Positions 33,368 to 61,384 of a DNA stretch of 64,000 bases are shown here, in pieces. A program made the translations under genes and the position numbers. The stretch is from Curtobacterium flaccumfaciens UCD-AKU. GTDB lineage: Bacteria; Actinomycetota; Actinomycetes; Actinomycetales; Microbacteriaceae. The DNA lies in NCBI RefSeq assembly GCF_000349565.1, contig NZ_KB714610.1:50289-114288 (forward strand). The letters are read 5' to 3'. Position 1 is the stretch's first letter, and the number at the start of each line of letters is the position of its first letter. Under the pieces are notes generated by a model. It ran no database searches. It saw only the letters and a program-made list of their open reading frames with translations, and was not told the origin of the DNA.

Positions 33368-34306
33368 ATGACGGACAGCCCGGCCGACGCCACCCCCTAC
33401 GAAGTCCTCGGCGTCCCCGCGACGGCTGACGACGAAGCGCTCCGCCGCGCCTACCGGCGGGCGGCCCGCGAGACGCACCCCGACCTCGGCGGCGACGCCC
33501 AGCGCTTCCGCCAGGTCCAGCTCGCATGGGAGCGCATCGGCACGCCGGCAGCCCGGCGCGCGTACGACATCGGGTCCCGCGCGTACGGCGCGTCCGGTCC
33601 GTCCGGGGCGACCGCCGGCAGGGGTGACACCGGTCGCGACGCCTACGCGCCCCCGGCAGCGCGTCGCGACACACGCCCCCGGGCCCGGTCCCACGGACAC
33701 CCCGGCGGTCGGTCACGCGAGGTCTTCCTGCAGGCCGAGCGCGAGTGGGTCGGCCTCGGCGACCCCATCGAGGACCCCTACGACCCCACCCTCATCCGCT
33801 CCGCGCCCCGCCACATCCGGCGGCTGCTCGCCGAGGCCCTGGCCGAAGAGGCGACCGCCTTGATCGTCTCCGACATGGGGATCGGCGTCACGGTGTGGCA
33901 CGACCTCGACGCCGGGGCCGAGGGCAAGCTCGACCACGCCGTCCTGACCCCGAGCGGACTCTGGGCCGTCGAGTCCATCGACTGGGGTGCGCCGGTCCAC
34001 GTCGAGCACGGCGAGATCGTCGGCGAGACGCTCGCACCGGGGGAGCGACCCGTCAAGGAACTCGTCCGCGCCGCCCGTGCCGTGCAGAAGCAGACCCGGG
34101 TGCGGTTCTCCGGCCGGCTGCTCGTCGTGCCGGACACCGCCGTCACCGAGGACGTGCAGCTCGTCGGCTCCCCGAAGAAGCCCACGGCGCTCGTCGTCCG
34201 CCGGAGCGCGCTGCCCCAGGTGCTGAACGGCGTCTGGTCGCCGGTCGGTTCGGTCGACGTGTTCGAGATCCGCGACCGTCTGCAGCAGACCGTCCGCTTC
34301 GTCTGA
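33368..34306 (+). CDS. J-domain protein with degenerate NERD-like domain
   Basis: A 312-residue protein. The J-domain (about 8-68) has the essential His-Pro-Asp in ETHPDLGGD, so it can stimulate a DnaK ATPase. A Gly/Arg-rich linker without zinc fingers follows. The C-terminal half (about 130-312) reads like a NERD nuclease-related domain: GKLDHAVLTPSGLWAVESIDWGA. The position usually held by a catalytic Lys (D-x-K) is Ile here, so nuclease activity is doubtful. TAATGT lies 9 bases before the ATG. A DnaK-linked role on DNA or a lost nuclease is possible; function open. Confidence 0.82.
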   Translation: MTDSPADATPYEVLGVPATADDEALRRAYRRAARETHPDLGGDAQRFRQVQLAWERIGTPAARRAYDIGSRAYGASGPSGATAGRGDTGRDAYAPPAARRDTRPRARSHGHPGGRSREVFLQAEREWVGLGDPIEDPYDPTLIRSAPRHIRRLLAEALAEEATALIVSDMGIGVTVWHDLDAGAEGKLDHAVLTPSGLWAVESIDWGAPVHVEHGEIVGETLAPGERPVKELVRAARAVQKQTRVRFSGRLLVVPDTAVTEDVQLVGSPKKPTALVVRRSALPQVLNGVWSPVGSVDVFEIRDRLQQTVRFV

Positions 34307-34360
34307 CCCCCGACCGCTGGCCCCGACCCCGGGTTCCGACCGTCACCGTCCGACGCGTCG

Positions 34361-34366
34361 TACGAT
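34361..34366 (+). promoter_or_regulatory. -10 element of leaderless small gene
   Basis: TACGAT lies 6 bases before the ATG at 34373; no ribosome site is seen. Confidence 0.5.
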
Positions 34367-34372
34367 CACGGC

Positions 34373-34750
34373 ATGCGCGAAGAGGTCGTCGTCGTGGTCG
34401 GCGGGTGGGAGCACGACTGCTGCGGGCCCGCGTACGAACGGGAGACCACGGCGGCCTTCTCCGCGTACGGCAGGACGCCGCGGTTCGCCGAGTCCCGGCA
34501 CCACGACGACCCGTTCGGCATCACGCAGTTCCGTGGTCGGGTGGCCGACCTGTTCGTCATCGCCGAGGACGGCACCCGCATCCCCGTCCACCGCGTCCCG
34601 TCCGGTCGTGCGCTGGGCGGATCGGACCCGGACGACGACGGGCACCTCGAGGCCCCGTGGACCGGAGAACGGATCGAGGTCGAGTCCGACACGTTCGAGA
34701 TCGTGGTCGATGTCTACGTGCCCGGGTCCGGGTCCGGGAAGCGTCAGTAG
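34373..34750 (+). CDS. Small conserved-looking protein (DUF6578-like)
   Basis: A 125-residue soluble protein. It begins VVVVGGWEHDCCGPAYERE, with a Cys pair and Trp that recall DUF6578 proteins of actinobacteria, where WxxxCCG is typical. Beta strands with many Asp and Glu follow. The ATG follows TACGAT by 6 bases. Its stop lies inside the S4-protein gene end on the other strand (7-base overlap). No activity is known. Confidence 0.65.
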   Translation: MREEVVVVVGGWEHDCCGPAYERETTAAFSAYGRTPRFAESRHHDDPFGITQFRGRVADLFVIAEDGTRIPVHRVPSGRALGGSDPDDDGHLEAPWTGERIEVESDTFEIVVDVYVPGSGSGKRQ

Positions 34751-35106
34751 CCGCGGAGCTTCTCGAGGTCGCGGCGCTCCCGCTTGCTCGGCCGTCCGGC
34801 ACCGCGCTCCCGCATCGGGACGAACCCGGCCTCTTCCTTCGACAGCCGCGGCGGGGTCTTGTCCTCGAAGTGCTTCGCTGCCTCGGGGGCGCTCGTGCGC
34901 TTCAGGATGATGCCCGTCACCATGACGATCCGGTCGAAGCCGTTCTGCCGCACCCGCACCTCGTCGCCGGGACCGATCGGCTGCGCCGGCTTCGCGCGTT
35001 CCCCGTTCACCCGGACGTGACCGGCCTTGCACGCGGCGGTCGCGGCCGACCGGGTCTTCGTGATCCGGACGGCCCAGATCCAACTGTCGACCCGGGCCTT
35101 CTCCAT
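34744..35106 (-). CDS. S4-domain RNA-binding protein (Hsp15-like)
   Basis: A 120-residue RNA-binding protein. The S4 domain covers about 4-65: ARVDSWIWAVRITKTRSAA, then AGHVRVNGERAKPAQPIGPGDEVRV. A basic C-terminal tail (PSKRERRDLEKLRGY) follows. Length and order match Hsp15/RqcP-like ribosome-recycling proteins that bind free 50S subunits. The ATG at 35106 is 6 bases after TATAGT, a leaderless arrangement. The divergent gene at 35140 uses the same 33 bases. Confidence 0.88.
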   Translation of the reverse strand: MEKARVDSWIWAVRITKTRSAATAACKAGHVRVNGERAKPAQPIGPGDEVRVRQNGFDRIVMVTGIILKRTSAPEAAKHFEDKTPPRLSKEEAGFVPMRERGAGRPSKRERRDLEKLRGY

Positions 35107-35112
35107 GCCGAC

Positions 35113-35118
35113 ACTATA
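35113..35118 (-). promoter_or_regulatory. -10 element of leaderless S4 gene
   Basis: TATAGT on the minus strand lies 6 bases before ATG 35106, and 9 bp from the opposing -10 element. Confidence 0.55.
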
Positions 35119-35127
35119 GGCGGCCCG

Positions 35128-35133
35128 TACCCT
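35128..35133 (+). promoter_or_regulatory. -10 element of leaderless SH3-like gene
   Basis: TACCCT lies 6 bases before GTG 35140. Confidence 0.5.
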
Positions 35134-35139
35134 GGGGCG

Positions 35140-35397
35140 GTGCAGGCGGACGAACAGGCGGCCATCGCGCGGGCCCGTGCGCTCGGAGTGCTCCGCGACG
35201 CCGCCATCGGGGACCGCCTGGTGGTCCGCGCACACCACGGGGACGGCGCGCAGGACGCGCTCGGGGACCTGGTGACCCGGACGTCCGACGCCGTGACGAT
35301 CTCGACCCGCCGGGGCCCGGTCGAGGTCCGGCTCGTCGACGTCGTCGCCGCAAAGCCCGTCCCGCCGCCCCCACCCGCGCGACCCGCGCGGCGCTGA
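35140..35397 (+). CDS. Small SH3-like domain protein
   Basis: An 85-residue protein starting at GTG 35140. It resembles the N-terminal SH3-like module of Rv0428c-type GNAT acetyltransferases (RLVVRAHHGDGAQDALGDLV, then RRGPVEVRLVDVVAAKPVPP). Here it stands without an acetyltransferase domain; a Pro/Arg tail follows the fold and the stop is clean. It may be a separated partner or regulator of such an enzyme (inference). A large tandem repeat begins right after it. Confidence 0.72.
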   Translation: MQADEQAAIARARALGVLRDAAIGDRLVVRAHHGDGAQDALGDLVTRTSDAVTISTRRGPVEVRLVDVVAAKPVPPPPPARPARR

Positions 35398-35414
35398 CGC
35401 GCTCGGCTCGCGCC

Positions 35415-35915
35415 GTGCTGGATTCGCGGAGCGGGGGTTGCACGGTGCGGACTTCGTCGGTGGGTGCGCCGTCGGGGGCTCGGTGCGGGGTTGTGGTGCT
35501 GCACGGAGCCACCAGCCTCGCACGGTGTGGCGCGGCCGGCACCGTGCTGGATTCGCGGAGCCGGGGTTGCACGGTGCGGACGTCGTCGGCGGGTGCGCGG
35601 CCGGAGGCTCGGTGCGGGGTTGTGGTGCTGCACGGAGCCACCAGCTCCGCACGGTGTGGCGCGGCCGGCACCGTGCTGGATTCGCGGAGCCGGGGTTGCA
35701 CGGTGCGGACGTCATCGGCGGGTGCGTGGCCGGGGGCTCGGTGCGGGGTTGTGGTGCTGCACGGAGCCACCAGCTCCGCACGGTGTGGCGCGGCCGGCAC
35801 CGTGCGGGATTCGCGGAGCCGGGGTCGCACGGTGCGGACTTCGTCGGTGGGTGCGTGGCCGGAGGCTCGGTGCGGGGTTGTGGTGCTGCACGGAGCCACC
35901 AGCCTCGCACCAGCT
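35415..35915. repeat. 129-bp tandem repeat, almost four copies
   Basis: Copies begin at 35415, 35544, 35673 and 35802, each 129 bp apart; the last is cut short near 35915. They are roughly 90 percent alike by eye. Each copy has GCACGG three times and a hairpin TGGTG...CACCA. Because 129 is a multiple of three, several frames on both strands stay open through the array. I regard these as fortuitous. It fills the gap 35398-36034; after it lies CTCGCACCGTGCGAA and then the promoter of the next gene. Confidence 0.9.
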
Positions 35916-39929: not shown

Positions 39930-40924
39930 AGCCGCTGTTCCGTTCCGTCGGGCTGCGCCGTGAGGTCGCGGTGCTCGTCGCCGTGGTGGTGGTCATCTCG
40001 GTGCTCGTCCTGATCGGGCTCGGCGCGGGGTCGATCCCGCTCACGCCCGGTCAGGTGCTGGCCAGCCTGTTCGGCCAGGGGGACCGCATCTCGGACTTCG
40101 TGATCGGGCAGCTCCGCGGCCCCAGGGTGCTCGGCGCGGTCCTCGTCGGCGCCAGCCTCGGTGTCGCCGGCGCGATCGTGCAGAGCGTCGTGCGGAACCC
40201 CATCGCGAGTCCCGACGTCATCGGGATCACCTCGGGGGCCAGCGCCGCCGGGCTCACCGCCATCGTGCTGTTCGGCGCGAGCGGCGGCACGCTGTTCTCG
40301 GTCGTGCTCGTCGGCGCCGTGGTGGTCGCGATCGCCATCGCCGGGCTCGCTTGGCGGAGGGGGATCACCGGGAACCGGGTCGTCCTCGTCGGCATCGGTG
40401 TCGCGGCGATCTGCCTGAGCATCACCGGGTGGATGCTCACGAGCGGCACCGTCACCCAGGCCGGAACCGCACTGCTGTGGCTCTCCGGCAGCCTGAACGC
40501 CGTCGACCGTGACCTGGTCGGGGTGCTCGGTGTCGCGTTCGTCGTGCTCGGCGTGCTCGCACTGCTGCAGTCCGCTCGGCTGCAGGTGCTGAGCCTCGGG
40601 GACGAGGTCGCCGCCGCCCTGGGGCTCCGACCGGACCGCGCGAAGGTGCTCCTGCTCCTCACCGCCGTGTGCCTGACCGCCGCAGCCGTCGCCACCGCGG
40701 GTCCGGTGTCGTTCGTGGCGCTGATGGCAGCCCCGATCGCTCGACGCCTGGTCGGCGGCGGTCGGGTCGCCCTCGCGCCGGCGGCAGCCGTCGGCGCCGC
40801 GATCACGCTCGGAAGCGACCTGCTCGCCCAGTTCGCGATCCCCGGCAACGCGCTGCCGGTGGGGGTCGTGACGGGTGTCGTGGGCGCGCCGTACCTGCTC
40901 TGGTTGCTCGCGCGGGGGCGTTGA
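39926..40924 (+). CDS. FecCD-family iron-siderophore permease, subunit 2
   Basis: A 332-residue permease, partner of the gene before it. GTG at 39926 overlaps the previous stop (GTGA). It has LRGPRVLGAVLVGASLGVAG, VVRNPIASPDVIGITSGAS and the conserved GPVSFVALMAAPIARRLVG loop. The heterodimer would import ferric siderophores with an ATPase and a binding protein. Neither lies in this window: downstream are repeats and an unrelated FHA gene, and upstream is a protease. These must be encoded elsewhere. Confidence 0.93.
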   Translation: MKPLFRSVGLRREVAVLVAVVVVISVLVLIGLGAGSIPLTPGQVLASLFGQGDRISDFVIGQLRGPRVLGAVLVGASLGVAGAIVQSVVRNPIASPDVIGITSGASAAGLTAIVLFGASGGTLFSVVLVGAVVVAIAIAGLAWRRGITGNRVVLVGIGVAAICLSITGWMLTSGTVTQAGTALLWLSGSLNAVDRDLVGVLGVAFVVLGVLALLQSARLQVLSLGDEVAAALGLRPDRAKVLLLLTAVCLTAAAVATAGPVSFVALMAAPIARRLVGGGRVALAPAAAVGAAITLGSDLLAQFAIPGNALPVGVVTGVVGAPYLLWLLARGR

Positions 40925-41011
40925 CGCGGGTCGTGCTGGTTCGTTGACGCTGGTCGAGCTGGTTCGTTGACGTGGGTCATGCTGGTTCGCTGACGCCGGT
41001 CGTGCGTTCGC
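40920..41011. repeat. 23-bp tandem repeat, four units
   Basis: GTTGACGYKGGTCGWGCTGGTTC-like units start at 40920, 40943, 40966 and 40989, 23 bp each. The fourth drifts at its end. Unit 1 contains the stop codon of the second permease gene. The end of the unit (GCTGGTTCG) recalls the 8-bp repeat at 10650. Confidence 0.9.
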
Positions 41012-41585: not shown

Positions 41586-42289
41586 TGGCCGCACGGTCCG
41601 CTGCGGCCCGGGCGGGGTCCGCGGCACCGGACCTGCTCACGATCGGGCAGGTCCTCGCTCGCCTCAAGCCCGAGTTCCCGGACCTGTCGAGCTCCAAGCT
41701 GCGGTTCCTCGAAGAGCGAGAGCTCGTCACCCCGATCCGCACGGCCAGCGGGTACCGCAAGTTCTCCGCCGCCGACCTCGAGCGTCTCCGGGTGATCCTC
41801 GGACTGCAGCGCGACCACTACCTGCCGCTCAAGGTCATCAAGGAGTACCTCGCCGACCTCGACGCCGGGCGCGAACCGGTCCTGCCCGGGGGCGGAGACG
41901 CGCCGAAGCCATCGATCCTCGGTCGTGAACGTCGGTACACCCGCGACGAGACCGTCCGCGCGGCCGGTGCCTCGCCGATGCTGTTGGCCGACGCGGTCTC
42001 GGCCTCGCTCCTGCCGCCCACCGACACCTACGGCGACGACGGCGTCTCCGTGTTGAAGGCCCTGGTCGAACTGCAGCGCACCGGCATCGAGCCGCGGCAC
42101 CTGCGCACGCTCCGCAGTACCGCGGAGCGTGAGGTCGGTCTCATCGAGTCCGCCCTCATGCCGGTCTCCCGCCGGGGCGACGCCACCTCGCGCGCGAAGG
42201 CCACCGAGCTCGCCCGCGAGATAGCGGGACACCTCGAGATCATCCGGTCGAACCTCATCCGCCAGGCCATCGGTCGTCTCGACGCATGA
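41585..42289 (+). CDS. ftsR: MerR-family cell-division regulator FtsR
   Basis: A 234-residue MerR protein, homologue of Rv1828/FtsR. The DNA-binding part is LLTIGQVLARLKPEFPDLSSSKLRFLEERELVTPIRTASGYRKFS. The C-terminal half lacks metal-binding Cys, as in FtsR. In Corynebacterium FtsR activates ftsZ transcription. GTG at 41585 overlaps the last base of the garA stop, so the two are co-translated. Its presence here joins carbon and division control. Confidence 0.92.
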   Translation: MAARSAAARAGSAAPDLLTIGQVLARLKPEFPDLSSSKLRFLEERELVTPIRTASGYRKFSAADLERLRVILGLQRDHYLPLKVIKEYLADLDAGREPVLPGGGDAPKPSILGRERRYTRDETVRAAGASPMLLADAVSASLLPPTDTYGDDGVSVLKALVELQRTGIEPRHLRTLRSTAEREVGLIESALMPVSRRGDATSRAKATELAREIAGHLEIIRSNLIRQAIGRLDA

Positions 42290-42473
42290 CGCCGTCCGGT
42301 GCTCCGACAGGGCTTGTGTGTCAGTGGTCGGGGCGTATCCTCGACACGCCGGACGCGCCGGGTCGGATGTCCCGCGCGGGAGCGGTCGGAGTCGCTACCG
42401 TGGACCTCGGAACAACTCTCAACCCGTCGTTGAAGCTTCGGGTGGGAGCTCGATCGTCGTGGAAGGCAAGCTC

Positions 42474-43034
42474 ATGAGTGGGAACGACACCCCTGGCACC
42501 GAGTCTGATGTGACCCGGTACGACCTCGGGCTGCTCTTCACCGATGGTCTGCCCGAGCACGACGAGCAGAACGGCTACCGCGGCACCGTCGCCGCACGGG
42601 CAGCCGGCATCTCGTACCGACAGCTCGACTACTGGGCCCGCACCGAGCTCGTGCAGCCGACGATCCGCGGGGCCGCCGGCTCCGGTTCGCAGCGCCTGTA
42701 CGGGTTCCGCGACATCCTGGTGCTCAAGCTCGTGAAGCGCCTGCTCGACACCGGTATCTCGTTGCAGCAGATCCGCACCGCCGTCAACCAGCTCCGTGAG
42801 TCCGGCGTCTCCGACCTGGCGCAGACCACGCTGATGTCGGACGGCGCCTCGGTGTACCTGTGCACCTCTGACGACGAGGTCATCGACCTCGTGTCCCGCG
42901 GCCAGGGCGTCTTCGGCATCGCGGTCGGCAAGGTCCTGCGCGAGGTCGAGAGCTCCCTGGTCGAGCTCGACGCCACCGCTGCGGCCGACCCCTCCGACGA
43001 GCTCGCCGCTCGTCGCGCTTCTCGCGCTTCCTGA
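42474..43034 (+). CDS. MerR-family regulator (Rv1830-like)
   Basis: A 186-residue MerR protein. The helix-turn-helix reads AARAAGISYRQLDYWARTELVQPTIRGA and is followed by LYGFRDILVLKLVKRLLDTGISLQQIRTAV. This matches the third gene of the conserved actinobacterial garA-ftsR-merR set (Rv1830), whose mycobacterial member affects growth. ATG at 42474 has GGAAGG 6-10 bases before it. The 184-bp gap upstream contains TATCCT as a possible -10 element. A large repeat array starts 20 bases after its stop. Confidence 0.9.
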   Translation: MSGNDTPGTESDVTRYDLGLLFTDGLPEHDEQNGYRGTVAARAAGISYRQLDYWARTELVQPTIRGAAGSGSQRLYGFRDILVLKLVKRLLDTGISLQQIRTAVNQLRESGVSDLAQTTLMSDGASVYLCTSDDEVIDLVSRGQGVFGIAVGKVLREVESSLVELDATAAADPSDELAARRASRAS

Positions 43035-43054
43035 CCATCCGCGTTCCGGCCCTG

Positions 43055-43905
43055 TGGTCGCGAACCGTCGCGTGTGAGTCGCCGTGTGGTCACGAACTGT
43101 CGGCTGTGACGCTGCCGGCCGACGGTTGGTGACCGCTCGGAGGACGTGAGCGGGGTGGTGTGACCCCTGGGCGTGCCGGGGTCGGGCGTGTCCGCTGGGC
43201 GTGCCGGGGCCGGGCGTGTCCGCTGGGGCGGGGCGTGCCTCCAGGCCGTTGTGGCGTGGTCACGAACCGCCGTGTGCGCGGCGCCGAGCGGTCACGAACT
43301 GTCGTCTGCGCGGTCTTCGGCCGACGGTTGGTGACCGCTCGGAGGACGTGAGCGGGGTGTTGTGAACCCTTGGCGTGCCGGGGCCGGGCGTGTCCGCTGG
43401 GGCGGGGGCGTGCCTCTAGGCCGTTGTGGCGTGGTCACGAACCGCCGTGTGCGCGGCACCGATTGGTCACGACCTGTCGCTTGCGCAGGCCTCGCCCGAC
43501 GGTTGGTGACCAGTCGGTGGACGTGAGCGGGGTGTCGTGACCGCTGGGCGTGCCGGGGCCGGGCGTGTCTGCCGGGGCGGGGCGCGCCTCCAGGCCGTCG
43601 CGGCGTGGTCACGAACCGTCGTGTGCGGGTCGCCGACTGGTCACGAACTGTCGGCTGCGCGCGCCCGAGCCGACCGTTGGTGACCGCTCGGAGGACGTGA
43701 GCGGGGTGTTGTGACCGCTGGGCGTGCCGGGGCCGGGCGTGTCTGCCCGGGCGGGTCGCGCCTCCAGGCCGTCGCGGCGAGGTCACGAACCGTCGCGTGC
43801 GGATCGCCGAGTGGTCACGAACTGTCGGCTGCGCGCGCCCGAGCCGACCCTTGGTGACCAGTCGGCGGACGTGAGCGGGGTGTTGTGACCCGTCGGCGTG
43901 CCGAC
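43055..43905. repeat. 174-bp tandem array, five units, each with four GGTCAC sites
   Basis: Units begin at 43055 (202 bp, with a 28-bp internal duplication), 43257 (175), 43432 (174), 43606 (174) and 43780 (shortened). Every unit holds GGTCAC, GGTCAC, GTGACC and GTGACC (two of twenty sites have one base changed). The spacing is fixed: 32, 41 and 31 bp. For unit 4 they are at 43607, 43639, 43680 and 43711. The inner pair forms an 18-base stem with two mismatches (43639-43656 / 43668-43685). The array fills the whole gap between the MerR gene and parA; I see no coding gene in it. Confidence 0.93.
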
Positions 43906-43911
43906 TCCGAC

Positions 43912-44745
43912 CTAGGCGGCGCCGCCCTCGGCGTACGGACCGATCTTGCCCGTGCGCATGATGCGCTCGAGCAGCTGGTCGAAGTTCTTCGCCATCTCCT
44001 GCGCGGACTCGCCGGGCCAGACGTGCAGCGGCTTCGCCGCACCCTGCGCCTGCTGCAGCGACGTGCGCTCCGGCAGCTGCGGGGAGAGCACGAGCGGGCC
44101 GAACATGTCGCGGAGTTCCTTGATGCGGAACTGGTGCTCGAGCGACTGCACCCGGGCACGGTTCACGATGATGCCGAGGGGCTGCAGCCGGGGGGAGAGT
44201 CCGCGGCGGATCTCCTCGATGGCGCGCAGCGCACGGTCGGCGGCGGCGACGGAGAACAGGCCGGGCTCGGTGACGACGGTGACGCGGTCGGACGCGGCCC
44301 ACGCGGTGCGGGTCAGGGCGTTCAGCGACGGCGCGCAGTCGATGAGGACGAGCTCGTAGTCCTGCTCGACGTTGGCCAGGGCCTCTTCGAGCTTCCAGAT
44401 GTCGCGGATGGACGGGTGCGGCCCGTCGAAGTTGATGGCGGAGGGCGACCCGACCATGACGTCGATCTTGCCCTGCGACCCCTTCGTCCAGCCCGAGGGG
44501 GCGATCGCCTGACGGACGATCTTCTCCTTCGGGTTCTCGAGGACGTCGGCCACGTTGAGGTGGCCGGCGAGGTTGATGTCGAGGCCCGTCGAGACGTCGG
44601 ACTGCGGGTCCAGATCCACCACCAGCGTGCGCAGTCCCTTGGCGAACGCGGCCGAGGTCAGGCCGAGCGTCACCGTCGTCTTGCCGACACCACCCTTGAG
44701 GGAGCTCACGCTGAGTACATGCACGTTGAGCAACGTTACCGCCAC
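43912..44745 (-). CDS. Orphan ParA-family ATPase
   Basis: A 277-residue deviant Walker ATPase. The motif SLKGGVGKTTVTLGLT carries the signature Lys, with DLDPQSD (Walker A') and LIDCAPSL (Walker B). Such proteins position DNA, cargo or pole complexes by dynamic binding to the nucleoid. No parB lies beside it, and the true chromosomal parAB is normally next to the replication origin genes, so this is an orphan. The start may be GTG at 44745, or the GTG that opens HVLSVSSLKGG 21 bases further in. It diverges from pyc. Its stop is 7 bp from the repeat array. Confidence 0.88.
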   Translation of the reverse strand: MAVTLLNVHVLSVSSLKGGVGKTTVTLGLTSAAFAKGLRTLVVDLDPQSDVSTGLDINLAGHLNVADVLENPKEKIVRQAIAPSGWTKGSQGKIDVMVGSPSAINFDGPHPSIRDIWKLEEALANVEQDYELVLIDCAPSLNALTRTAWAASDRVTVVTEPGLFSVAAADRALRAIEEIRRGLSPRLQPLGIIVNRARVQSLEHQFRIKELRDMFGPLVLSPQLPERTSLQQAQGAAKPLHVWPGESAQEMAKNFDQLLERIMRTGKIGPYAEGGAA

Positions 44746-44784
44746 TAGGGTTGTCTCACCTCAACCCGGGCTGAAAGGGACGTC

Positions 44785-47700
44785 GTGTTCACGAAGATCC
44801 TCGTTGCGAACCGTGGCGAGATCGCCATCCGCGCGTTCCGTGCCGCCTACGAGTTGGGGGCCCGTACAGTGGCCGTCTACCCGTACGAAGACCGGAACTC
44901 CCTGCACCGGCTCAAGGCCGACGAGGCCTACCTGATCGGGGAGCGGGGCCACCCGGTCCGGGCGTACCTGGACGTCTCCGAGATCATCCGCGTCGCCCGC
45001 GAGTCGGGGGCCGACGCGATCTACCCGGGGTACGGGTTCCTGTCCGAGAACCCGGAGCTCGCCGCGGCAGCAGCCGCGAACGGCATCACCTTCATCGGCC
45101 CGGGCGAGCACGTGCTCGAGATGGCCGGCAACAAGGTCACCGCGAAGGAGCACGCGATCGCGGCCGGCGTCCCGGTCCTCGCGAGCACCCCGGCGAGCCG
45201 CGACATCGACGAGCTCATCGCCGGCGCGGACGCGATCGGGTTCCCGGTGTTCGCCAAGGCCGTCGCCGGCGGTGGTGGCCGTGGCATGCGCCGGGTGGAG
45301 ACGAAGCCCGAGCTGCGCGACGCCCTCGAAGCCGCGATGCGCGAGGCCGACAGTGCGTTCGGCGACCCGACGATGTTCCTCGAGCAGGCCGTCATCCGTC
45401 CGCGCCACATCGAGGTGCAGATCCTCGCCGACGCGACCGGCACCGACGGCGGCACGATCCACCTGTTCGAGCGGGACTGTTCGGTGCAGCGGCGCAACCA
45501 GAAGGTCGTCGAGATCGCCCCGGCGCCGAACCTCGACCCCGCGATCGCGCAGGCACTGCACCGCGACGCCGTGGCCTTCGCCCGCTCGATCGGCTACGTC
45601 AACGCCGGCACCGTGGAGTTCCTGCTCGACACCGAGGGCGAACGCGTCGGCCAGCACGTCTTCATCGAGATGAACCCGCGCATCCAGGTCGAGCACACGG
45701 TCACCGAAGAGGTCACCGACGTCGACCTGGTGCAGTCGCAGATGCGCATCGCGGCAGGGGAGACCCTCGCCGACCTCGGTCTGTCGCAGGACGCCGTCCA
45801 CGTGCACGGCGCCGCGCTGCAGACCCGCATCACGACCGAGGACCCGACGCAGGGCTTCCGTCCGGACACCGGCCGGATCAGCACCTACCGCAGCCCCGGC
45901 GGCGCGGGCGTCCGGCTCGACGGCGGCACGGTCGCCACCGGCGCGCAGATCAGCCCGCACTTCGACTCGATGCTCGCGAAGATGACGTGCCGCGGCCGGG
46001 ACTTCCCGGCGGCGGTGTCCCGGGCGAAGCGCGCCCTCGCCGAGTTCCGCATCCGCGGCGTCAGCACGAACATCCCGTTCCTGCAGGCCGTGCTCGAGGA
46101 CCCGGACTTCGCCCGCGGCGACGTCTCGACGAAGTTCATCGAGGAACGCCCCCAGCTCTTCGGCGGCCACGTCTCGAAGGACCGCGGCACGAAGGTGCTC
46201 ACCTGGCTCGCCGACGTCACGGTGAACAAGCCGAACGGTGAGCGGTCGCCGCTCGTCACCGACCCGGCCGACAAGCTCCCGGCCACCGACCTGACGACGC
46301 CGGTGCCCGAGGGACAGCGCGACCGCCTGCTGGCGATGGGCCCGGCCGAGTGGTCGAGGGCCCTCCGCGCCCAGACGGCCCTCGCGGTGACCGAGACGAC
46401 GATGCGGGACGCCCACCAGTCGCTCCTGGCCACACGGGTCCGCACGAAGGACCTCGTCGCCGTCGCACCGCACGTGGCGCGGCTCACCCCGCAGCTGCTC
46501 AGCGTCGAGGCCTGGGGAGGTGCGACCTACGACGTCGCCCTCCGGTTCCTCGGGGAAGACCCCTGGGAGCGCCTGTCCTCGCTGCGCGAAGCGATGCCGA
46601 ACATCCCGATCCAGATGCTGCTCCGTGGCCGCAACACGGTCGGGTACACGCCCTACCCGACCGAGGTCACCGACGCCTTCGTCGACGAGGCCGCTCGGTC
46701 CGGCGTCGACGTCTTCCGCGTGTTCGACGCGCTGAACGACGTCAGCCAGCTGCGTCCGGCGCTGGAGGCGGTGCTCGCGACGGGCACGGCGGTCGCCGAG
46801 GCGGCGCTCTGCTACACCGCCGACCTCCTCGACCCCGCCGAGGACCTCTACACGCTCGACTACTACCTCCGCCTGGCGGAGCAGATGGTCGAGGCCGGCG
46901 CGCACGTCATCGGCATCAAGGACATGGCCGGTCTCCTGCGTGCCGGTGCGGCCGAGAAGCTCGTCACCGCGCTGCGCGAGCGCTTCGACCAGCCCGTGCA
47001 CGTGCACACCCACGACACCGCCGGCGGCCAGCTCGCGACCCTGCTCGCCGCCTCCCGCGCCGGGGCGGACGCCGTCGACGTGGCCGCAGCACCCATGGCC
47101 GGCACGACCAGCCAGCCGAGCATGTCCGCCCTGGTCGCCGCCCTGGCGCACACCGAGCGCGACACCGGTCTGTCCCTCGACGCCGTCGGTGACCTCGAGC
47201 CCTACTGGGAGTCGGTCCGTCGCGTGTACGCCCCGTTCGAGTCCGGGCTCGCCGGTCCGACCGGGCGTGTCTACAAGCACGAGATCCCCGGCGGTCAGCT
47301 GTCGAACCTCCGGCAGCAGGCGATCGCCCTCGGGCTCGGTGACCGGTTCGAGCAGGTCGAGGACTGGTACGCCGAGGCGAACCGGATCCTCGGACGACCG
47401 ACCAAGGTCACGCCGTCGTCGAAGGTCGTCGGCGACCTCGCGCTGCAGCTCGCCGCGGTCGGTGCCGACCCGGTCGACTTCGAGCAGAACCCCGACAAGT
47501 ACGACATCCCGGACTCCGTGGTCGGGTTCATGGCCGGCGAACTGGGCGACCTGCCCGGCGGCTGGCCGGAGCCGTTCCGCTCGAAGGTCCTGGCCGGGCG
47601 TGACGTCCGACTCGAGATCACCCCGGTGCCCGCGGACGAGCGTGCGCACCTCGAGACCCCCGGACCCGAGCGGCAGCAGGCACTCAACCGCCTGCTCTTC

Positions 47701-59978: not shown

Positions 59979-60383
59979 ATGCCGCTCTCGGAACAGGAGC
60001 AGCGCCTTCTCGAAGAGATGGAGCGCAGCCTCTACCAGAACGATTCCGATTTCGTGGCTCGTGTCACACGTCGACAGGGTCGTCCGACGTACACAGCCAT
60101 CACCCTCGGGGTCCTCGGCGCACTCGCCGGGATCGCCGTCGTCATCGTCGGCCTGGTCATCAAGGCGCCGCTGCTGGGCATCCTCGGCTTCGTCGTGATG
60201 CTCGCCGGTGTCCTGTTCGCGCTGCGCCCGGGCATGCGTGCCCCGAAGGCGAAGCCCGCTCGGCCGGGCAAGCCCGCATCCGGTGGGTCGGCGCGTCCGT
60301 CTGCCAGTGGTGGTGGTGGTGGCGGGTCCTTCATGGACCGCATGAACGACCGCTGGGACAAGCGGAACGACCAGGGTCAGTAG
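59979..60383 (+). CDS. DUF3040 membrane protein
   Basis: A 134-residue protein with the DUF3040 opening PLSEQEQRLLEEMERSLYQND. Two hydrophobic helices follow (about 43-63 and 67-85), then a Lys/Arg/Gly-rich tail. ATG at 59979 has AGAGGGAA before it. Homologues sit just before mraZ in many actinobacteria (Rv2169c position). Role unknown; the location suggests a link with envelope growth. Confidence 0.92.
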   Translation: MPLSEQEQRLLEEMERSLYQNDSDFVARVTRRQGRPTYTAITLGVLGALAGIAVVIVGLVIKAPLLGILGFVVMLAGVLFALRPGMRAPKAKPARPGKPASGGSARPSASGGGGGGSFMDRMNDRWDKRNDQGQ

Positions 60384-60420: not shown

Positions 60421-60448
60421 ACGGGGTCGGCCTTCGGGCCGGCCCCGT
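60421..60448 (+). terminator. Rho-independent terminator after DUF3040 gene
   Basis: ACGGGGTCGGCC and GGCCGGCCCCGT pair with one wobble around a TTCG loop, and TT-CGTGTT follows. It is the most classical terminator in the window. Confidence 0.85.
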
Positions 60449-60553
60449 TTCGTGTTCCCGGGGGCGGGCGGGTTCGGGCGGGTTCGGGCCGGGGCCGGGG
60501 CCGCGGGGCGGAGCCGGAGCCGCGGGGTGTGCGCGCGGGGTGTGCGCGCGAGT

Positions 60554-60664
60554 GGTCACGACAGGCCGGGCGGAGGTCGCCGGGGGGTCACGAACTGTCG
60601 GCTGGGGCCCGCGCGAACGACAGTTCGTGACCACTCGGCGGCGCGGCGGCGGCGCGTCGTGACC
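60554..60664. repeat. Single copy of the four-site GGTCAC element
   Basis: GGTCAC at 60554 and 60586 and GTGACC at 60627 and 60659 have spacings of 32, 41 and 32 bp, as in the array at 43055. The inner arms GGTCACGAACTGTCG (60586-60600) and its exact inverse (60618-60632) form a perfect 15-bp stem. The outer arms GGTCACGAC / GTCGTGACC are perfect over 9 bp. Confidence 0.9.
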
Positions 60665-60899
60665 ATGCGCTGACCGGCGGCCGGGCGTGGTGGAGCCGAC
60701 CGTGCGACCGCGGCGCGCCCCGACGTGCTCCACCGGCTGCGAAAGTCCTCCACTTTCCTCCACGCCCGCTCCTGCCGCCCGGATCCGCATGGATCCGGGC
60801 TTTTCGGGCTGCATCTGCGGGATGCATTCCTGGGCGCATGCCCCCAGTAGGGGTGTCGAGGGCCGAAAAGGGTGCGGAATCCTGGTCCGGGGGAGGGGA

Positions 60900-60914
60900 G
60901 TGGAGTAAAGTGGG
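60900..60914 (+). promoter_or_regulatory. mraZ promoter with MraZ-type repeats
   Basis: GTGGA-GTAAA-GTGGG (60900-60914) holds two GTGGR units 10 bp apart, matching the TGGGN repeats with 5-bp spacers that MraZ binds in other bacteria. TAAAGT at 60905-60910 is the likely -10 element. Autoregulation of the dcw cluster is inferred. Confidence 0.6.
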
Positions 60915-60952
60915 GCTTGCAACGGTCCGGTGGAGCGGAGGGGAGGCCCGAC

Positions 60953-61384
60953 GTGCTGCTCGGTACTCATGCCCCGAAGCTCGACGAGAAGGGTCGCGTG
61001 ATCCTCCCCGCCAAGTTCCGGGACGAACTGTCCGGCGGGCTCGTCATGACCCGCGGCCAGGAACGCTGCGTCGTGGTCTTCAGCGCCCGGACGTTCGAGG
61101 AACTCCACGAGCGCATCCGGACCGCTCCGATGACGTCGAAGCGCACCCGGGACTACATGCGCCTGTTCCTCTCGGGGGCCAGCGCGGAACAGCCCGACAA
61201 GCAGAACCGCGTGACGATCCCGCAGAACCTCCGCGAGTACGCGGGGCTCGAGCGGGACCTCACGGTCATCGGCAGCGGTGACCGTGCCGAGATCTGGTCC
61301 ACCCCCGCGTGGGAGGCCTACTACGCCGAAGCCGAAGAGGCATTCGCCGACAACGACGAGGAGGTGATCCCGGGGATCTTCTGA
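60953..61384 (+). CDS. mraZ: MraZ, dcw-cluster regulator
   Basis: A 143-residue protein with two AbrB-like halves, each with the DxxGR signature: [17 protein letters not shown] and [20 protein letters not shown] at 60953 follows GGAGCGGAGGGGAGG and gives the usual length. MraZ binds its own promoter and represses the division and cell-wall cluster. rsmH follows after 106 bases. Confidence 0.97.

Follow-up and report, generated by a model that had tools for sequence, protein, structure and literature searches.

In the 64,000-nucleotide stretch of Curtobacterium flaccumfaciens UCD-AKU DNA analysed here (the window), a gene for a MerR-family regulator and a convergent gene for a ParA-type ATPase enclose an array of five 110-bp units, each carrying four GGTCAC/GTGACC sites at spacings of 32, 41 and 31 bp (Table 1). 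All 20 site starts given in the original prediction proved correct, and the only deviants were the two that it had named, GGTCGC at site 1 of unit 1 and GTGAAC at site 4 of unit 2, with one base changed in each and the other 18 of 20 sites exact. TRF described positions 43188-43903 as a repeat of period 174 with 4.1 copies. Searched at no more than one mismatch in 24 bases, the four-site geometry occurred six times in the window, in these five units and in a sixth one near mraZ, and it was absent from 40 first-order Markov copies of the window.

Table 1. Genes and repeat units of the window (positions counted from its first nucleotide)
Feature	Position	Strand	Description
MerR-family regulator gene	42474..43034	+	left neighbour of the array, convergent with parA; Pfam MerR_1, 2.9e-14
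Unit 1	43056..43165	+	sites 43056 (GGTCGC), 43088, 43129, 43160; arms of 32 and 31 bp
Unit 2	43258..43367	+	sites 43258, 43290, 43331, 43362 (GTGAAC)
Unit 3	43433..43542	+	sites 43433, 43465, 43506, 43537, all exact
Unit 4	43607..43716	+	sites 43607, 43639, 43680, 43711, all exact
Unit 5	43781..43890	+	sites 43781, 43813, 43854, 43885, all exact
Inner two-site core of unit 5 (example)	43803..43869	.	also found, in different motif dialects, in further genera of the family
ParA-type ATPase gene	43912..44745	-	right neighbour of the array; Pfam AAA_31, 6.9e-28
Sixth unit	60554..60664	+	spacing 32/41/32; flanked by a + strand ORF of 134 aa (59979-60383) and mraZ (60872-61384)

The earlier description of the spacings as 3, 4 and 3 helical turns had to be amended, since 41 bp is not four turns and sites 3 and 4 are inverted. 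Because of this inversion, what is evenly spaced is a set of four 15-bp motifs, whose centres lie 32, 32 and 31 bp apart, about three helical turns between neighbours. The motifs run in the order -> -> <- <-, which gives the unit dyad symmetry. Inner motifs have the form GGTCAC-n5-GTCG and outer ones the form GGTCACrAC-n-C-n-yCG; site 2 of unit 4 (GGTCACGAACTGTCG) may serve as an example. Two further repeats were noticed in the window. At 35413-35910, directly after the end of an ORF (33745-35397), TRF found an unrelated-looking tandem array of 129-bp units (3.9 copies, 94% matches) in which CCGTGC/GCACGG boxes repeat, possibly another intergenic repeat family, and at 40919-41005 it found 3.8 copies of a 23-bp repeat (CGTTGACGCGGGTCGTGCTGGTT).

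The fixed geometry was borne out across the 3.7-Mb genome, where the exact pair GGTCAC-N26-GGTCAC occurred 42 times versus 0 for a reversed control (119 versus 12 at no more than one mismatch). The 33 stretches read around matches, taken together with the window, contained 32 clusters of units, the parA array being one and 31 others lying elsewhere. With search ranges of 30-34, 36-51 and 29-33 bp for the three spacings, 45 units were collected, two box mismatches being allowed at most. Their inner spacing was 41 bp in 42 of 45, the left arm measured 32, 31, 30 and 33 bp in 29, 13, 2 and 1 of them, and the right arm 32 or 31 bp in 29 and 16. A covariance model built from 37 units matched in 55 of 66 genomes of the genus, with 0 to at least 58 matches per genome where no more than 58 candidates were scored; some single-contig genomes, such as G017 and G034, gave no match. 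The spacing was likewise conserved in the relatives, in which altered boxes retain the 31/32-bp distance (GGTCGCAC and GAGGTCGC, and, by eye, GAGGTTCC). One relative, with up to 150 candidates scored, had 89 distinct element places, and 23 of its 42 clusters held more than one unit. Plasmid records returned one 27-base match at E 0.3 and phage records none; among the open-access papers listed, none describes the repeat, as judged by titles and the starts of abstracts. In two relatives, an 8-bp tandem repeat of unrelated geometry (GGTCACGC) was also seen (G019 C1:97437-97506 and G026 C1:2238196-2238249). All in all, the elements are real, non-random and functional-looking, and they form a large family of short symmetric DNA elements, built on an evenly spaced 15-letter motif and located mostly at gene ends. 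Local duplication accounts for tandem arrays like that beside parA, in which the number of copies differs from species to species.

Outside the genus, the loci read show the centre of the element only. The four-site model matched in 23 of 199 genomes of the family (up to 19 candidates scored per genome), and 20 weaker loci, from nine genomes of seven other genera, contained only the inner half, in the form of a palindrome about 60 bp long, for example TCGATCGGTCGCAAACTGTCGCC with its inverse; a script detected the four-site arrangement in none of these 20. A core model built from these loci and four from this genome, over a window of 67-68 nt set by script, was then applied with stricter filters and up to 17 candidates scored per genome, and found matches in 116 of 299 family genomes, spread over 47 of 85 genera. 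To judge by this distribution across the family, the two-site core is probably the older form; the outer pair, which is seen in this genus, is an extension of it. We compared 40 core loci with their flanks, 37 from other genera and three from this genus (L302-L304). Fifteen lay in convergent, 19 in tandem and two in divergent gaps, three were scored inside genes and one had no right-hand gene; convergent enrichment was not significant in this family sample (15/36 versus 7/33, p = 0.08). The 40 loci show motifs that vary from genus to genus and tend to be shared among the loci of one genome: GGTCAAAAAGTGTCGA was present in 3/3 loci of G138, GAGTGGGCACGATTCGTCG in 2/2 of G371 and GATCGGTCGCAAACTGTCGCC in 2/3 of G204, and the locus pairs from G180 and from G194 differ in part.

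It had been proposed that the array is a positioning or cargo site of an orphan parA, a proposal that the distribution of the two does not support. A close parA ortholog (95-100% identity) was present in 65 of 66 genomes of the genus; that of G026 is split in two, the one genome lacking it, G023, is a 73%-complete assembly, and some ParA match was found in 66/66. The nearest named relatives of this parA belong to Rathayibacter (90%), a Microbacteriaceae MAG (84%) and Agrococcus (80%). GGTCAC units, one to five in number, surrounded parA in 14 of the 30 best-matching parA loci among the 66 genomes, and the same scan detected none in the remaining 16, three of which are short. Since elements lie at 31 other clusters, parA itself is near-universal in the genus and more than half of these parA loci (16/30) have no units, the merR-parA neighbourhood is one site among many, and a parA-specific site was rejected. 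A ParABS centromere, with parS beside parAB near the origin, was also rejected, as the elements are dispersed and show no significant origin bias in four genomes, three of them represented by the matches listed. In several of the parA loci without GGTCAC units, the same gap holds palindromes with other boxes (by eye; in L127 and L131 by script). Such palindromes occupy the merR-parA spacer of L141 (G063), L149 (G024), L146/L147 (G065/G029) and L142/L143 (G062/G075), with boxes that read by eye as GGAACC, GAGGTCGC or GAGATCGCAC. The GAGGTCGC boxes of G065 and G029 were confirmed by pattern, and in the GGAACC form the 31-bp arm is nearly unchanged.

The position of the elements relative to genes was analysed with genes called by a home-made codon-position script. 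Gaps with elements in this genome were convergent in 13 cases, divergent in two and tandem in 16, compared with 11, 12 and 30 among the other gaps of at least 110 nt, and the caller placed three clusters inside genes. The 60554 unit was scored divergent, yet a co-directional ORF ends at 60383; if that ORF is a gene, the divergent count becomes 1/31. In three other genomes, the 24 best-scoring loci (of which L153 and L170 are the same gap) comprised 19 convergent, 0 divergent and five tandem cases. Pooled, and with a background taken from this genome only, convergent gaps made up 32/55 element gaps versus 11/53 background gaps (p = 8e-5) and divergent ones 2/55 versus 12/53 (p = 0.004), so that 53/55 element gaps were convergent or tandem. 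Among ten neighbouring proteins checked, Pfam named ParA, MerR, polyprenyl synthase, MraZ, FMN reductase, a family-6 glycosyl hydrolase, GntR, a Bax-inhibitor-like protein and GMP synthase, and one had no match. In tandem gaps, the 31-bp arm pointed toward the 3′ end of the upstream gene in 11/15 and 4/5 units, a polarity that we treat as a lead only, because some of the units lie together in one gap and p is no lower than 0.04.

The suggestion that the elements mark chromosome position is not supported. Clustering with respect to origin or terminus was not significant in four genomes (KS p 0.54, 0.25, 0.21 and 0.83), where the origin was taken to lie at a second ParA homolog and G087, G006 and G010 were represented by the matches listed only and by rounded genome lengths; on this basis ori/ter positioning was rejected. 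Among the matches listed, the ter-proximal quarter was slightly richer in each genome (14/42, 15/39, 6/13 and 5/15 clusters).

The question of decay was addressed at orthologous loci. The sister species was represented by 20 loci plus L126, in stretches selected by an exact GGTCAC pair or by a match to the model. Of these 21, 20 aligned, at 84-97% identity, with a stretch fetched from this genome, L181 being the one without a match among the stretches fetched, and both members carried units in 19 of the 20 aligned pairs. Sixteen units could be paired, at loci where the two genomes have the same number of units; L023 and the window were dropped. At L013, one of three units in this genome was left out on account of an inner spacing other than 41, so that the pairing at this locus may be wrong. 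In these 16, motif columns outside the box had changed at 7/347 positions versus 153/982 for the variable columns (p = 4.6e-14), and the GGTC of the boxes at 1/248 versus 126/1056 in the near flanks; the far, mostly coding flank had changed at 541/9985. The difference persisted when GTCG, which the unit finder uses, was omitted from the motif columns (6/219, p = 1.5e-8), and in eight units at loci that are single-unit here, with the relative's unit number left free (2/175 versus 71/498, p = 5e-8; GGTC 0/124). Indel events, counted without L013, numbered 14 per 1547 nt inside units versus 79 per 2257 nt in 90-nt flanks (p = 1.6e-7). Few motif changes and rare indels together indicate that both sequence and spacing are constrained, although the choice of the relative's stretches by GGTCAC pair or model match favours conserved units and makes the effect size an upper estimate. 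Comparison of these sequences thus places motif and spacing under strong purifying selection at orthologous loci, and the view of the unit as a protein-assembly site rather than a product of decay gains support, the protein itself being putative.

From the observed motif, geometry, dispersal, gene-end position and purifying selection we infer, with a probability of about 0.4, that the unit is a duplex-DNA element bound by a sequence-specific protein and, sitting mainly between convergent genes and downstream of genes, acts as a two-way block to transcription. Four protomers or dimers would load on one face of the evenly phased motifs, and the putative protein would coat or wrap about 110 bp and block RNA polymerase from both sides, as a two-way roadblock terminator or insulator. 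Selection keeps the elements intact, probably because they are bound by a protein. The symmetry of the element would suit convergent genes, and motif dialects are as expected if site and protein coevolve. A fuller version, in which two phased motifs in the ancestral form, or four in this genus, host a lineage-specific protein that walls off convergent genes while its specificity and the sites drift together, we regard as doubtful. Against a protein speaks the fact that dialects changing from genus to genus would, to our knowledge, be unusual for a host regulator. The two sides of the core hairpin in other genera also change together, which selection on a hairpin would equally produce, in an alignment where 20/24 rows came from a structure-scoring search. 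A position at gene ends, moreover, is the default of passive repeats such as REPs, according to PMC3733652, and stoperators, as described in PMC9283540, work in one orientation while the element here is symmetric.

It is somewhat unlikely, in our estimate, that the elements are instead a REP- or ERIC-like palindromic repeat, formerly mobile and non-autonomous, that is tolerated at gene ends and has no host function. The gap downstream of one GntR gene, which is convergent, favours this explanation: among the best 30 loci of 66 genomes, seven carried the GGTCAC element, three a GAGGTTCC element, 19 an empty spacer of 18-46 nt and one was rearranged, so that elements are gained or lost as whole units, and no target duplication was obvious there by eye. 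The high copy number in the relative with 89 places and the REP-like position point the same way. Recent mobility is argued against by the variable columns, which were at most 78% identical between loci (median 44%, 51 units; 78% median within arrays) and give no sign of recent jumps in the fetched loci. No Y1_Tnp/RAYT gene (PF01797) was found in any of 66 genus genomes, although the control search was positive in 5/14 genomes, and a RAYT-driven REP was therefore rejected. Of the mobile palindromic element envisaged earlier, then, the presence or absence of whole units between convergent genes was retained, and recent copying and a RAYT partner were not. Purifying selection on motif and spacing at fixed loci, together with the retention of units by both sister species at nearly all aligned loci, also argues against a repeat that is merely tolerated.

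A second alternative, which we consider unlikely, holds that the hairpin acts as a structure, either as RNA, in a two-way terminator or a stabiliser of mRNA 3′ ends perhaps linked to Rho, or as a DNA cruciform. Unit 4 folded as RNA at -61.7 kcal/mol (z -3.7; z -1.55 as DNA), a good fold that follows from its inverted motifs. The core of other genera forms a near-perfect hairpin, and its two sides change together, with 101 two-sided cells versus 37.3 in shuffles; this covariation is not decisive, since a symmetric protein would account for it no less than a hairpin and 20/24 rows came from the structure-scoring search. Within this genome, by contrast, the 37 units showed no covariation (0.139 versus 0.138 +/- 0.008 in shuffles) and paired no better than shuffles (79.4% versus 80.0%). 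Between orthologs 110 stem pairs had changed. Sixty-two of them had been paired beforehand; 20 of these remained so and 42 lost pairing, the retained number being compatible with a null of 16.1 +/- 2.8 that reaches 20 in 12% of draws, and no double compensating change occurred among the 62. In transcript sense, G-T showed no significant advantage over A-C (17:9, p = 0.17; 74:57, p = 0.16). Rfam 15 gave no match up to E 1 in 42000-45000 and none at gathering score in 16 loci. With no covariation among paralogs or orthologs, RNA structure was rejected within the genus, where what is conserved is the duplex motif rather than the hairpin.

Termination signals of known type were considered in the same context. 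An intrinsic terminator, a GC-rich hairpin followed by a T-run, was rejected, as there were 0 T-tailed hairpins and no T-run in 42800-44200, around the parA array, and one in 29 convergent or tandem element gaps. Gaps without elements had 4/64, so T-tailed hairpins are rare with and without elements; this comparison does not discriminate and gives no indication that elements replace terminators. By eye, 60423-60456 forms a GC-rich hairpin with a GTTTCGTGTT tail after ORF 59979-60383, about 100 bp before the sixth unit, where element and ordinary terminator may thus coexist. In the family sample, of which 3/40 loci are from this genus, the incoming flank was C-rich (0.123 versus 0.015, p = 0.003), possibly a Rho-type signal in other genera, which would favour a structural role. 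In this genome the incoming flank was G-rich rather than C-rich (-0.057 versus 0.034, p = 0.0008), and a Rho-type C-rich entry was rejected here as the opposite of what is seen. Over the 60 nt on either side of the core in L266-L305, the incoming side is C-rich and the outgoing side G-rich, more strongly than after other stop codons.

That the elements are chromosome-organisation sites (gyrase, SMC-type or centromere-like), placed where convergent transcription accumulates supercoils, seems improbable. Their preference for convergent gaps and a dyad-symmetric 110-bp size near that of a gyrase footprint agree with it; a strict motif is unlike the preference of gyrase, the four genomes tested for ori/ter bias (three by the matches listed) gave nothing significant, and some single-contig genus genomes, such as G017 and G034, have no match. 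Least probable is an uptake-sequence-like drive, in which a DNA-uptake or recombination system favours the motif and so makes it persist. The dialects and inverted pairs at gene ends resemble the Neisseria DUS, with its lineage dialects and its own inverted pairs at gene ends, but DUS number thousands per genome, and here tens of copies were found in a fixed 31/32-bp four-site geometry.

If a protein does read the sites, the binding reading put forward above would describe a chromosomal, sequence-specific means of ending or insulating transcription in high-GC Actinobacteria, and the rarity of T-tailed hairpins in the gaps examined would be the context for such a protein-based stop. The dozens of sites per genome, in their natural dialects, would then be material for work on the coevolution of a DNA-binding protein with its sites. 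Even as a passive repeat, the family is widespread (47/85 genera sampled) and has no Rfam match in the loci tested. Array copy number differs between species and could serve for typing.

Among known systems, the elements belong with the intergenic palindromic repeats; their four-site architecture is unusual, their motif comes in dialects, and they are clearly under selection. ERIC/IRU sequences are imperfect intergenic palindromes of about 110-130 bp without a known transposase; they occur in a different taxon and were compared by description, and ERIC is not known to have an evenly spaced four-motif structure or dialects. REPs are multi-copy intergenic palindromes, mostly in convergent or co-directional gaps and often clustered, as described in PMC3733652, and with REP/BIME the elements share intergenic, mostly convergent or co-directional placement and clustering. 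REPs measure 20-40 bp according to the same source, whereas the unit here has 110 bp and four motif copies, with a family core of about 60 bp; further differences are the missing RAYT gene in the 66 genus genomes and the conservation, within the genus, of the motif rather than of pairing. Lrp-type regulators have sites of 13-17 bp that lie two or three turns apart, and one of them wraps about 100 bp (PMC2995911); an octamer has been reported on several 15-bp sites (PMC10201364). The spacing of the elements, with several 15-bp motifs 32, 32 and 31 bp apart, agrees with that of Lrp/AsnC operators, and the geometry resembles theirs. The likeness is one of geometry: the Lrp operators described in PMC2995911 lie in gene control regions, unlike the elements at gene ends, and any palindromy of the single sites of the elements is weak. 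Stoperators of cluster A mycobacteriophages are proposed, in PMC9283540, to halt elongating polymerase at intergenic sites in one orientation. Like them, the elements place a short asymmetric motif at many scattered sites, some of these in short gaps between genes, while the stoperators described there are phage 13-mers with a single oriented site and the elements are chromosomal, with four sites in the order given above. In placement and in likely effect, the elements resemble these phage stoperators.
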